DNA of 64,000 bases from Streptomyces sp. T12. GTDB taxonomy: Bacteria > Actinomycetota > Actinomycetes > Streptomycetales > Streptomycetaceae. Positions 18,525-59,419 of the stretch are shown in pieces. Each line of letters opens with the position of its first letter. Within the stretch, counting starts at the first letter, position 1. The notes beneath the pieces were generated by a model. That model did not search any database. It was given only the letters and a program-made list of their open reading frames with translations, and was not told the DNA's origin. Both the position numbers and the translations under genes were made by a program. The DNA lies in assembly GCF_028736035.1 (NCBI RefSeq), contig NZ_CP117866.1, forward strand, positions 10,767,001 through 10,831,000, read 5' to 3'.

Positions 18525-18563
18525 AGGGCCAACCGGGGGCCGACATCAGGGCCAACAGGCCCT
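18525..18563. promoter_or_regulatory. Tandem DevR-like boxes
   Basis: AGGGCCAACCGGGGGCC (18525-18541) and the perfect palindrome AGGGCC-AACA-GGCCCT (18548-18563) are 23 bp apart. A half-site GGGGCCGAAC lies at 18483. They sit 170-210 bp upstream of the SLOG-like gene. Confidence 0.5.
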
Positions 18564-18616
18564 TGCGGGCGGACGACCGACGCCGCTCGGCTACCGCCCG
18601 CCTCCTCGCGCCTGCG

Positions 18617-18763
18617 CTACTTGTTCGCGTGCCCGGCGAGGTAGAACAGCAGCATCACCCACCCGGCGATGATGTGGGTGCCGAAGATGTAGAAGAAGGC
18701 GCGCAAGGCGACGCCGCGCTCCTTCCGGTTCTCCGCGTCGCGTTCCTTCTTGGGCTCGCTCAC
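18617..18763 (-). CDS. DUF6126-like small membrane protein
   Basis: 48 aa from GTG 18763 (GGGAG nearby; ATG 18784 would add seven residues). A charged N-terminus (EPKKERDAENRKERGV) leads into one transmembrane segment, ALRAFFYIFGTHIIAGWVML, and a short tail ending GHANK. This matches the DUF6126 family of actinomycetes; the function is unknown. It lies just downstream of the HATPase gene on the same strand and may share its transcript. Confidence 0.72.
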   Translation of the reverse strand: MSEPKKERDAENRKERGVALRAFFYIFGTHIIAGWVMLLFYLAGHANK

Positions 18764-18799
18764 CGGGTCAACTCCCTGCTTCATTCCGGGTGGTGTGCA

Positions 18800-19279
18800 C
18801 TACATGACCTGCGAAGGGATCTGGAACCGGACGAGGACGACCTTGCCGTCATGGTCCAGGGCCGGCTCGGCACTGACGTCCCCGTCGTAGTCGGCGGCCA
18901 ACTCGGTCACCATCCGCAGCCCGGCGCCCATGCCCTCGAGTGTGAGGTCCGGCAGGCGCGGCTCGGCGTCCGCGACACTGACGACCAGCTGGTCCGCGGC
19001 GACCGTTATCCCTACGTCCATCAAGGGCGAGCGCGCGGCGTGCCGCAGCGCGTTGGTGACCAGCTCGCTGACCACCAGCAGCACAGCGTCGGCGAACGTG
19101 GAGTCCGGCACGACGCCGATCTCACGGAACCGCCCGGCCACCGCCTCACGGGCGTGCGTCACCGCCTCCGGTCCGACCGGTATCGAGACGATGTGCCGCC
19201 GTACAGGCGGCGGCACATGCTCTATCCCCGCTGCGGGGCGGCCTCTGCGCCACGGCGGCCTGAACCGGTGTCTGTCCAT
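18800..19279 (-). CDS. HATPase_c anti-sigma-type ATP-binding protein
   Basis: 159 aa. ATG 19279 overlaps the ArsR stop by one base. A basic N-terminal ~30 residues precedes the ATPase core with N box VSELVTNALRHAARSP and lid EGMGAGLRMVTEL. It is an RsbW-like kinase fold, as in the 7.5 kb gene. Coupling to an ArsR gene is repeated in both operons, suggesting a conserved pairing of ArsR regulators with partner-switching ATPases. No STAS gene follows here. Confidence 0.85.
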   Translation of the reverse strand: MDRHRFRPPWRRGRPAAGIEHVPPPVRRHIVSIPVGPEAVTHAREAVAGRFREIGVVPDSTFADAVLLVVSELVTNALRHAARSPLMDVGITVAADQLVVSVADAEPRLPDLTLEGMGAGLRMVTELAADYDGDVSAEPALDHDGKVVLVRFQIPSQVM

Positions 19280-19620
19280 CACCGTGCAGGCTCCGCTGTG
19301 GATCGCAGCTCCTCCAGCAGCTCGTGGCGGCCGGCCAGCAGCACGGACAGGATCCGGCGTGCCCCTGCCAGCAGCTCGGCTACGTCCCCGCCGGCCAGCT
19401 CGTACACCACCGTCGAGCGGGTGCGGGTGGCGGTGACGATTCCGGAGCGGCGCAGCACGGCCAGCTGCTGCGAGAGGTTCGACGGCTCGACCTCGATCGC
19501 CGCGAGCAGGTCGCGCACCGGTCTTGGCCCGTCCTGCAGTAGCTCCAGCACCCTTATCCGCACAGGATGGCCGAGCATCCGGAAGAACTCGGCCTTCGCC
19601 TCGTACAGCGGAATGGGCAT
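19279..19620 (-). CDS. ArsR-family transcriptional regulator (third of three)
   Basis: 113 aa from ATG 19620, preceded by GGGAG eight bases upstream. Winged-helix repressor (PIPLYEAKAEFFRMLGHPVR, then IEVEPSNLSQQLAVLRRSGI). It is nearly identical to the 5.1 kb ArsR over the N-terminal half, and also has no cysteine. Its recognition helix is close to that of the first ArsR, yet the palindrome upstream differs (TTGAAG arms rather than TTGC arms). It is the middle gene of a three- or four-gene operon. Confidence 0.88.
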   Translation of the reverse strand: MPIPLYEAKAEFFRMLGHPVRIRVLELLQDGPRPVRDLLAAIEVEPSNLSQQLAVLRRSGIVTATRTRSTVVYELAGGDVAELLAGARRILSVLLAGRHELLEELRSTAEPAR

Positions 19621-19625
19621 CCCGA

Positions 19626-56780: not shown

Positions 56781-56921
56781 GTCCCGGCAGGCGGCGTCAG
56801 CAGGCCGGAAGCACGTCTGCACGAGCAAGCGGGATCAGCCCGCTACCAGGCGGCGACAGTGGGCGCGCCCGTGAACCGTGCGGTTCATGGCTTTCCTCTG
56901 TGTTCCGGCTCCGTGGTGCCG

Positions 56922-57860
56922 CTATTCGTCGTGGAACAGGTCCGTGCTGAGGTAACGCTCCCCGCTGTCGGGCAGGACGACGACGATCAGGGCGCCCTTG
57001 TGCTGTGGGTAGTGGGCGACGGTGGTGGCCGCGTGAAGAGCGGCTCCGCCGGAGACTCCGGTGAGGATGCCCTCGGTGCGTGCCAGGCGCCTGGCCGCGG
57101 CACGGGCCTCGGGTGCGGAGACGCGCTGCACGGTGTCGTAGACCTCGGTGTCGAGGACATCGGGGACGAAGCCGGCGCCGAGGCCCTGGATGCGGTGCGG
57201 GCCGGGGGAGCCGCCGGACAGGACGGCCGACTCCGCCGGTTCCACGGCCACCACGGTGATGTCGGGGTTCTTCTCCTTGAGGACCTGGCCGACGCCCGTG
57301 ACGGTGCCGCCGGTGCCGACGCCGGCCACCAGGATGTCGACCTGTCCGGCGGTGTCCTGCCAGATCTCCTGGGCAGTGGTGCGGCGGTGAGCGTCGGGGT
57401 TGGCCGGGTTGCGGAACTGCTGCGGCATGAACCAGCCGTGGCGCTCGGCCAGTTCGGTGGCGCGGGCGACCGCGCCGGTCATGCCCTCGGCGGCCGGGGT
57501 CAGGATGAGCTCGGCGCCGTAGGCGCGCAGCAGGGCGCGCCGCTCGGTGCTCATGCTCTCGGGCATGGTGAACGTGACCGGGTAGCCCTTGGCGGCGGCC
57601 ACCATGGCCAGGCCGATGCCGGTGTTGCCGCTGGTCGGTTCGACGATGCCCTGCCCGGGCCGGAGCGCGCCGGTGGTTTCGGCGTCCTCGATCATCGCCA
57701 GGGCGATGCGGTCCTTGACGCTGCCGCCGGGGTTGGCGGACTCCAGCTTCACGACCAGGCGCACGGGCAGGTCCGCGCCGTAGCGGCGCAGCGCCACCAG
57801 GGGGGTGCGGCCTATCAGCGCCGTGATCGAGGGAATGAACGAGGGGCGTGTCGCCGTCAT
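56922..57860 (-). CDS. cysK: Cysteine synthase A
   Basis: 312 aa from ATG 57860. O-acetylserine sulfhydrylase: PLP lysine in [20 protein letters not shown], phosphate loop [40 protein letters not shown] and substrate-closing [12 protein letters not shown]. It forms cysteine from O-acetylserine and sulfide. The serine acetyltransferase gene directly upstream overlaps it by four bases, so the two enzymes of the cysteine synthase complex are coupled. Confidence 0.95.
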
Positions 57861-58444
57861 GGTCGTCCTTCTTTCTCGTCCGAGGGGGTGAGGACCCCGG
57901 CGTGGGGTGTCGTTGCTGTGTCAGGAAGATGGGTGACGGAGGCGGTATGTGCGGTCCGGACGTGGGAGTGGGCGGGGACGTCGCGCAGAACCAGGGCGTG
58001 CGCGCCGACGATCGCGTCGTGGCCGACGTGCACGGGGCCGAGGACGGTGGCGCCGACGCCTAGGACCACCCGGTCGCCGATGGTGGGATGCCGCTTGGCG
58101 GCCTTCGCGTCGGTCCACCAGCCGGTGCCGCCCAGGGTGACGCGGTGATACAGCATCACGTCGTCGCCCAGGACCGCAGTCTCACCGATCACCACGCCCA
58201 TGCCGTGGTCGATGAAGCAGCGGCGGCCGACGACCGCGCCCGGGTGGATCTCGATGCCGGTCAGCGCGCGGGTGAGCTGGGACAGCAGACGGGGCAGCAG
58301 TGGCACACCGAGCCGGTACAGCTTGTGGGCGAGCCGGTGGGCCCAGATCGCCCACAGGCCGGGGTACAGCAGGACTTCGACCACATGGACACCGTGCAGG
58401 GCCGGGTCCTTGCGGCAGGCCGTTCGGAGATCTTCGAGGATCAT
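57857..58444 (-). CDS. cysE: Serine O-acetyltransferase
   Basis: 195 aa from ATG 58444. The N-terminal helical region ([20 protein letters not shown]) leads into a left-handed hexapeptide repeat ([20 protein letters not shown], then [20 protein letters not shown] and TLGGTG). It acetylates serine from acetyl-CoA. Overlaps cysK by four bases. The C-terminal ~30 residues are extended and low complexity. No T-box or other cysteine riboswitch-like element was seen upstream. Confidence 0.93.
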
Positions 58445-59362
58445 GCGCGTCTTTCTGTGGGCCGGGCGCGGCATGGAGCCGGTGGGCGTGGTGTCGGGGT
58501 GGCACGCCATGCTCGACGGGCCGCGCCGGCAGCGGGGCGGAGGGGTGTTGGGCTGGGGCCGACGGAGGTCGGTCACTGCCGTGACGGCTGCACAGGCGCC
58601 CCTGCCAACGGTGCGCGCGGCCCACCGCGGGCCGGTGCAGCCTCACGTCGAAGAGGCAGAGGAGGGGAAGCCCTCCGCACCTGCGGCACAGGGCAGGTGT
58701 CGGAGCGCGGGGAATTGACATCGCGCCAGTCCCTGCCGTGCGACGAGTCGACGTGCCCCCTCGTCGTGGGTTCCGAAGCCACCGCGGTCGTGCCGTTGTC
58801 CATGTCAGGGAACGCTACGGCCCGGTCCCGATGCGGCGCCCGGTCCGAAGCGCCTGGTGTGGATGGGCCGGACGGTCCCGATCGTCGCTCGCGGTACGGG
58901 ACCTACAGCCCGCGGCAATGGGGCCGTTCGGCCCGAGCACCCCCTTGCCTCGTCAAGCGATGCTGCCTCCCGGAACCGAACGGGAAGAGGGCCACGGACC
59001 GCCGCCTCCAACTGCTGGCTGCGCGTTCTCCTATCCAGAGGCCGCAGTTGGAAGCGGTGTCCCTCCCCGCTCGGTCACCGTCCGGCCGCCACACCCGTCC
59101 CGGGCGGGGCGGCCGGACGCGCCCCGACACGCTGGGCGCCGATGCGGAGTGCTGTGCCCGCCTGCGGCAAGTCTGCCCTTGGCCGCTGCGACGAGGCGCT
59201 GTGCGTCGCGGCCCGGCCGCCGCCCAGAAGCCCCGCTTCGGGCTGGTCGCCTGCTGCAACAGCCTTCTGCTGCCCCAACTCGGCGCCGCCGAGATCGTTC
59301 TGTATCCCGTCGCGTACCGCAACCTGACGTGCGCCTGCCCGTTTGAGAGTCGGCTCGCTGTT

Positions 59363-59398
59363 GTGGTCCGCGTGGTCCGCGTGGTCCGCGTGGTCCGG
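59363..59398 (+). repeat. Tandem repeat, four 9-bp units GTGGTCCGC
   Basis: Three exact copies and one ending CGG, about 135-170 bp upstream of feoA. No hairpin potential of note. Confidence 0.75.
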
Positions 59399-59404
59399 GT
59401 TGAT

Positions 59405-59419
59405 GGGGCCAAGGGGCCC
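59405..59419. promoter_or_regulatory. DevR-like box before feoA
   Basis: GGGGCC-AAG-GGGCCC lies 36 bp before the iron box of the feo operon. Confidence 0.45.

Follow-up and report, generated by a model that had tools for sequence, protein, structure and literature searches.

Which regulator, if any, uses the near-palindrome that recurs upstream of stress-related genes in a 64,000-nucleotide stretch of Streptomyces sp. T12 (assembly GCF_028736035.1, contig NZ_CP117866.1, positions 10,767,001–10,831,000; hereafter the window)? Inspection of the letters alone (the sequence-only reading) had described a motif close to GGGGCC-N3/4-GGYCCC before at least ten genes or operons, often as tandem pairs, and had proposed that it marks a regulon of the mycobacterial DosR/DevR type. 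We followed up this proposal across the genome, which comprises 11.46 Mb on two contigs at ~70% GC, and in other genomes of the genus. The repeated near-palindrome is a predicted box of OsdR, the Streptomyces counterpart of DevR/DosR, and very probably serves as the OsdR binding site; it marks part of an unusually large block of genes for stress and low oxygen.

The window motif matches the published OsdR consensus of S. coelicolor, AGGGCCGATCGGCCCT, which was obtained by MEME from the regions upstream of osdR orthologues in 12 species; in gel shifts, OsdR bound this box, and altered conserved letters resulted in weaker binding (PMC5069765). A recurrent motif thus exists as claimed, but the earlier wording fits it only roughly, and GGGCC-N4-GGCCC, with G/C favored at the spacer ends (GGGCCG-NN-CGGCCC), is the better description. 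Literal matches to GGGGCC-N3/4-GGYCCC gave four rows at three places in the window versus 0.51 by chance, and four rows were reached in 2 of 100 shuffles.

We scored sites with a matrix (matrix 1) built from the 24 distinct S. coelicolor OsdR sites in Table 1 of PMC5069765; since these sites are published, the test is independent of the window. The background was 760 kb of the same genome, made up of 18 spread 20-kb stretches plus 200 kb each from the core and the left arm. Two stretches (L050 and L051) of the original 20 were dropped because they had been chosen for the second osdR locus. The window holds 23, 14, 7, and 4 sites at thresholds of at least 8, 10, 12, and 14 bits, respectively, whereas the background holds 129, 46, 13, and 6, which predicts 10.9, 3.9, 1.1, and 0.5 per 64 kb. 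Third-order Markov copies of the window (n = 10) gave means of 17.8, 6.0, 1.8, and 0.6 at the same thresholds; at 8 bits the window exceeds its own copies only slightly, and weak single sites are therefore untrustworthy. A refined matrix (matrix 2) was derived from 53 sites, all outside the window and including intergenic sites of the surrounding block. It found 11 window sites of at least 11 bits versus 1.77 expected (Poisson P = 2.7 × 10–6) and nine of at least 12 bits versus 0.84 (P = 2.7 × 10–7). Two of the 11 lie within genes or gene relics: 28969 is inside a universal stress protein (USP) gene, and 53019 is in a GAPDH remnant that was an open reading frame in one of two gene calls (gene calls were made with a simple in-house caller). 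The sequence-only reading had named the background of a high-GC genome as the comparison to make. Against that background, both the published and the outside-trained matrix found enrichment, and the recurrent motif is real.

The window sits within a 300-kb block (10.59–10.89 Mb) in which the boxes favor intergenic DNA strongly. With matrix 1 (the published one, though intergenic sites of the block outside the window helped to train matrix 2), 58 sites of at least 11 bits fell in 52 kb of intergenic DNA versus eight in 248 kb of genic DNA, an odds ratio of 34.5. All 58 have a 4-bp spacer; at the same threshold, intergenic sites with spacers of 3, 5, and 2 bp numbered three, four, and one. A separate class of boxes with a 3-bp spacer was considered and rejected, as its 16 intergenic and 10 genic sites of at least 9 bits shrank to three and one at 11 bits or more; because this class was weak, the spacer was taken as 4 bp. 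Genome-wide, the exact core GGGCCGWWCGGCCC was counted 18 times, with 11 of these in the block, versus two occurrences of a reversed control. Summed over 150 genomes of the genus, the core was found 613 times and the reversed control 285 times, the forward count being the higher in 102 genomes and equal in 21.

Boxes cluster in two sections of the block, at about 10.607–10.714 and 10.785–10.889 Mb, and a smaller boxed module lies at 5.366–5.381 Mb; Blast placed the same genes as paralogous copies, some fragmentary, at three places among the matches listed. The block holds 47 of the genome's 60 Usp-domain stretches (one of the 60 is below the cut-off). In a first look across 101 genomes, this strain had the highest number of Usp candidates (108), which is not a firm rank since ~35 candidates per genome were scored. 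Core families of the DosR regulon are present, namely USP, Acg, Rv1733c, CBS, Hsp20, and nitrate reduction (nar genes being assigned by mutual homology and our own reading). The overlap in gene content with DosR regulons that had been noted earlier thus holds, with Rv1733c, Acg/Rv3131, USP, and CBS families all identified.

The boxes are also regularly placed. In the block, a strong box had its partner 20, 21, 22, or 23 bp away in 8, 11, 16, and 7 cases, respectively, and never at 24–25 bp. Hence 42 of the 90 neighboring pairs that are 18–64 bp apart fall at 20–23 bp; when each site was jittered by up to 15 bp (2000 trials), the mean was 9.1 and the maximum 22. In ten pflB loci of other Streptomyces, pairs likewise peak at 20–23 bp (4, 11, 7, and 6 cases), with three at 24 bp. 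Tandem pairs about two helical turns apart are therefore a real feature, as the sequence-only reading had it, and two OsdR dimers may occupy one face of the helix at such pairs. Not every boxed promoter is paired, that of the GNAT-ligase gene being an example. We also considered a periodicity at three and four turns, with rises at 31–34 and 40–44 bp, and rejected it, as 181 of 2000 jitters were as extreme (at 27 bp or more). A start codon lies within 500 bp of 53 of the 57 strong boxes in the block, at a median distance of 109 bp (quartiles 83–144). DevR of Mycobacterium tuberculosis binds adjacent boxes cooperatively (PMC3029386). The open PMC papers on tandem-box spacing, in the parts seen, yielded no 20–23 bp rule for OsdR.

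The genome also encodes the expected regulator and sensor. Searching with the DevR-like protein of the block returned 73 matching stretches, three of them outstanding; a regular-expression text search had missed regulators and kinases, and protein searches recovered both. Two osdR copies are intact (5366239–5366940 and 10686427–10687188), are 89% identical, and have complete receiver and GerE domains, the D-box receiver being present; the former matches DevR (PDB 3c3w) with an E-value of 5.1 × 10–70. The third OsdR-like gene (10653026–10653679, L005:6026–6679) is decayed, being without the N-terminal receiver part and having an expanded DG repeat. Boxes stand upstream of all three, at 18.3 and 17.2 bits for the intact copies and 16.8 bits for the decayed one. 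Two full-length OsdK-like kinases, similar to DevS/DosT and 82% identical to each other, are likely haem-GAF histidine kinases of the OsdK/DevS/DosT type, judging by their sequence. The first GAF domain (GAF-A) of the arm copy matches DosT at 3.4 × 10–49, with the HHPPM segment included. A 299-amino-acid kinase relative at 10863803 is partial. Collectively, the fit to the published consensus, the osdR and OsdK-like genes, the gene families, and the enrichment support the proposed regulon of the DosR/DevR/OsdR type.

In such a regulon, the haem-GAF kinase OsdK would respond to a gas signal (low oxygen, with nitric oxide [NO] as a modulator) and phosphorylate OsdR. OsdR dimers would then bind GGGCCG-NN-CGGCCC at sites ~100 bp before start codons, in many cases with two dimers on the same helix face at a distance of two turns, and stress and low-oxygen genes would be switched on: those for USPs, the Acg and Rv1733c families, acyl-CoA ligase, pyruvate formate-lyase, flavohaemoglobin, oleate hydratase, and methyltransferase. 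For this strain, we infer OsdR binding, the signal, the direction of control and cooperative binding at pairs.

Upstream regions of 350 bp were scored at orthologues from other genomes of the genus, excluding the window's own copy; the background rate, from 268 genes of this genome, was 6.3% with a box of at least 8 bits and 3.4% with one of at least 10 bits. The flavohaemoglobin and DUF4389 sets were the best 30 loci of each search. Flavohaemoglobin orthologues (72–92% identity) carried a box of at least 10 bits in 26 of 29 cases. By contrast, the sister clade (~60% identical; 20 loci hand-picked from the rows at about that identity, including this genome's second copy) had none at this threshold and two at 8 bits or more. 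Boxes of at least 10 bits preceded all six methyltransferase orthologues and five of nine oleate hydratase orthologues, the latter split into three of the four closest relatives, none of three at 62–65% identity, and both of two at 48%. For pflB, the first 36 of 80 loci were scored: among ten close Streptomyces orthologues, nine had a box of at least 8 bits and six of at least 10 bits, and among the other 26 actinobacterial loci, four had one of at least 8 bits within 450 bp. The ten Streptomyces pflB loci, taken as 14-kb pieces, contain 42 boxes of at least 12 bits versus 2.4 expected, and in a plain alignment of 11 pflB upstream regions the boxes line up partly. As a control, none of eight loci of the window's Hyf-like gene (own copy included) had a box of at least 8 bits.

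Several observations weigh against control by OsdR, or against its reach. The genome has many regulators of the NarL family (73 matching stretches), and in 27 of the 150 genomes the reversed control outnumbers the exact core. In the window, adhP has a weak site of 7.9–9.3 bits at 51295, while the matrix does not list the site of the type first described (51346) at a threshold of 6.5 bits; an adhP paralogue at 10692303, located after a boxed USP gene, is itself unboxed over 220 bp. The PPDK gene of the window also has no box within 220 bp, though PPDK is a proven target elsewhere; its core paralogue has a box of 18.5 bits. The pflB gene of S. griseorubiginosus is without a box. Lastly, DUF4389 is an ambiguous candidate for a conserved target: 3 of 29 orthologues have a box of at least 10 bits (P = 0.07) and 9 of 29 one of at least 8 bits (P = 5 × 10–5).

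Of two alternative explanations, the likelier is that a different member of the NarL family, or a single OsdR paralogue, uses these boxes, with a recognition sequence that is similar but not identical. The number of NarL-like stretches would allow it, as would the presence of three OsdR-like copies, one of them decayed, and several window boxes differ from the consensus seen elsewhere in the block. However, matrix 1 was derived from published OsdR sites, each of the three osdR-like genes has an upstream box, and the published table (PMC5069765) also contains deviating forms such as GGGACCTTCGGCCC; we consider this explanation improbable. The second, that high GC, codon usage, repeats, or transcription terminators generated the palindromes and that they are no regulator sites, is scarcely credible. 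In its favor, DNA of 70% GC is rich in GC palindromes, many of the literal matches outside the window are of the GGGGCCTGCGGCCCC type, and at 8 bits the window is hardly above its Markov copies. It is, however, already contradicted by the intergenic concentration of strong sites (odds ratio 34.5), the conserved 20–23 bp spacing, the tracking of one flavohaemoglobin clade and not its sister, and the reversed-pattern control (285 versus 613 over 150 genomes).

With OsdR retained as the probable regulator, its candidate targets in the window can be listed. Among the ten genes first listed, strong boxes lie at oleate hydratase, hmp, the USP pair, the GNAT-ligase, Acg-1, and the methyltransferase, and moderate ones at pflB and DUF4389 (where the target is ambiguous); the claim did not carry over to adhP, which is weak, or to Acg-2, which has no listed near site. 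Leftmost, a box at 18548 (AGGGCCAACAGGCCCT; 13.0 bits with matrix 1, 8.8 with the refined matrix) and a weak partner at 18525, 23 bp away (together 18525–18563), lie ~216 bp before a gene for 161 amino acids at 18340 on the minus strand. The oleate hydratase gene (21641–23212, minus strand; Pfam MCRA, 1.1 × 10–193; above the cut-off of NCBIfam oleate hydratase) is preceded by a pair at 23290 and 23310, 20 bp apart (23290–23325; 9.3 and 11.5 bits). Upstream of the flavohaemoglobin gene hmp (23866–25080, minus strand; Pfam Globin, FAD_binding_6, and NAD_binding_1; 353 bits to NCBIfam NO-inducible flavohaemoprotein, under the cut-off of 432) is an array at 25198, 25221, 25254, and 25276, in steps of 23, 33, and 22 bp (25198–25291; 14.2 bits at 25198).

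Two double-domain USP genes, 27467–28372 and 28399–29304 (plus strand; Pfam Usp, 2 × 10–54 and 4 × 10–50), follow a box at 27369 (11.1/11.9 bits) with a degenerate partner at 27390 that was found by consensus only, at 10 of 12 letters (27369–27405). The box spacing is 20 bp at both paralogous USP promoters, and all three paralogues of the USP gene are boxed. A further 13-bit box at 28969, within the coding sequence of the second USP gene, possibly arose by chance. At 31742–31757, a box of 13.4/13.7 bits, for which no partner was found, precedes the gene for a GNAT acyl-CoA ligase (31841–34534) and a CBS-BON gene (34548–35282; both plus strand, by Pfam); the two other GNAT-ligase paralogues carry strong boxes as well, so all three are boxed. 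An Rv1733c-family gene (37929–38510, minus strand; NCBIfam NF050032, 193 bits versus a cut-off of 80) and Acg-1, an Acg/Rv3131-family oxidoreductase gene (38868–39827, plus strand; NF047509, 309 bits versus a cut-off of 199), share a divergent promoter region with a box at 38629 and a pair at 38713 and 38734, 21 bp apart (38629–38749; 15.3, 9.8, and 12.4 bits). Upstream of pflB is a box at 40052 (10.0 bits with matrix 1, 7.4 refined) with weaker ones at 40075 and 40098, in 23-bp steps (40052–40113). The genes that follow on the plus strand (40187–43191) encode pyruvate formate-lyase (40187–42448; Pfam PFL-like, 4.9 × 10–206, and Gly_radical) and an activase-like radical SAM protein (42445–43191; Pfam Radical_SAM).

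The DUF4389 membrane protein gene (43742–44422, minus strand; Pfam, 5.1 × 10–19) is separated from a plus-strand gene at 44613–45242, weakly like NADPH-dependent F420 reductase, by a pair at 44505 and 44527, 22 bp apart (44505–44542; 9.8 bits at 44527), and the F420-reductase-like gene, rather than DUF4389, may be the target of this pair. A strong pair at 53019 and 53040, 21 bp apart (53019–53055; 16.8/16.9 bits), now resides in a GAPDH remnant (52857–53102; Pfam Gp_dh_C, 3.1 × 10–14), 233 bp before Acg-2, the second Acg/Rv3131-family gene (53260–54252, plus strand; NF047509, 324 bits); the site nearer to Acg-2, at 53120, was not listed by the matrix at 6.5 bits or more. A full-length GAPDH gene with upstream boxes is found at genome position 10653819. 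The methyltransferase gene (55827–56672, minus strand; Pfam Methyltransf_25, 1.7 × 10–8) has a box at 56744 (15.4/15.5 bits) with a weak partner at 56766, 22 bp apart (56744–56781). Boxes at 58864, 58897, and 58920 (58864–58935), of which 58897 scores 6.6 bits and the other two are strong, at 13.8 and 18.4 bits, lie in a 1-kb stretch without a clear adjoining gene, possibly marking a lost or small gene.

Boxed genes were also seen in the block beyond the window. An Hsp20/alpha-crystallin gene (10664630–10665052, L005:17630–18052) is preceded by two boxes (8.0 and 15.4 bits) spaced 21 bp apart; for another Hsp20-like gene, at 10864672, the nearest 220 bp contain none of at least 7 bits. In L008, boxes stand directly upstream of genes for a 4Fe-4S dicluster protein (10708668–10709822) and a hydrogenase-maturation protease (10712559–10713122), and therefore hint at a hydrogenase in the regulon. 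Other genes with upstream boxes encode a P-type ATPase with cupredoxin and YHS domains (10631378–10634170), a phosphofructokinase (10643286–10644311), and an AdhE-like aldehyde/alcohol dehydrogenase (10876132–10878840).

 The sequence-only reading had noticed no motif at the ArsR and Hyf-like operons at 5.0–10.2 kb. By matrix this stands, the only site there being 8730, which is intragenic, but a loose consensus match (10 of 12 letters) occurs at 9604, 36 bp before an ArsR gene. Three mutually similar ArsR-type genes (50–77% identity) lie within 15 kb, at 5058–5396, 9640–10002, and 19279–19629, and no matrix-supported box was found before any of them. FeoA- and FeoB-like genes (59405–61782 stretch) are preceded by consensus-like sites at 59405 and 59427, which the matrix does not support at a threshold of 6.5 bits. 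Elsewhere in the window, two pieces of a gene for a PPK2-type polyphosphate kinase (29313–29702 and 31146–31574), both ~85% identical to parts of a full gene at genome positions 10913454–10914257, flank a transposase fragment, and the gene therefore looks interrupted by an insertion element.

The arms of the DosR box are GGGAC. Unlike in M. tuberculosis, the arms here are GGGCC, and the gene set includes pflB and oleate hydratase. The likeness to the M. tuberculosis DevR/DosR regulon lies in the DevR-like regulator and the DevS/DosT-like GAF kinase (PMC3029386; PDB 3c3w and 2vzw), and in the Acg/Rv3131 and Rv1733c families, USP, Hsp20, and several packed boxes per promoter (PMC3029386). Closer still in kind is the OsdR (SCO0204) regulon of S. 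coelicolor, with its box consensus, osdR and osdK orthologues, a box upstream of osdR, and USP, nitroreductase, CBS/Crp-like, PPDK, alcohol dehydrogenase, and nar genes in one region (PMC5069765). In an S. coelicolor osdR mutant, several usp genes and nar2 are lower (PMC5069765); deletion of devS or devR lowers narG2, upstream of which DevR binds, and hmp is under NsrR (PMC4766573). Independent expression evidence comes from S. lividans, where osdR rises together with pflB, PPDK, and the CBS, alcohol dehydrogenase, USP, nitroreductase, and nar2 genes (PMC6302529). The S. coelicolor regulon is described with a core at SCO0167–SCO0219 and 43 predicted sites genome-wide at its own cut-off (PMC5069765), whereas here 58 strong intergenic boxes, counted at a different matrix cut-off, fall in one 300-kb block with paralogous modules. 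Table 1 for S. coelicolor (PMC5069765) lists neither oleate hydratase nor flavohaemoglobin nor this methyltransferase, and these three and DUF4389 are not in the examined part of Table 2 for S. lividans (PMC6302529). The kind of system is thus already known, and the interpretation first offered for the window is supported; what is added here, relative to the open PMC papers searched, are the candidate targets, the two-turn spacing rule, and the size and three-module duplication of the block.

We further propose, as an idea with about equal chances of proving right or wrong, that in Streptomyces one flavohaemoglobin clade is under OsdR and its sister clade is not. NO removal, oleate hydration, and pyruvate formate-lyase would then form one low-oxygen programme, run through boxes two turns apart and amplified in this strain into three diverging, partly decaying sensor-regulator modules. 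In the three modules, a two-component regulon is seen to have been duplicated and to be partly decaying. An OsdR system can far exceed the size described in the model strain. Box pairs 20–23 bp apart and ~100 bp upstream offer a simple rule for predicting targets of DevR-family regulators in high-GC genomes, and the candidate targets (oleate hydratase, a second flavohaemoglobin, and a methyltransferase) make the anoxic life of aerobic filamentous bacteria testable gene by gene.

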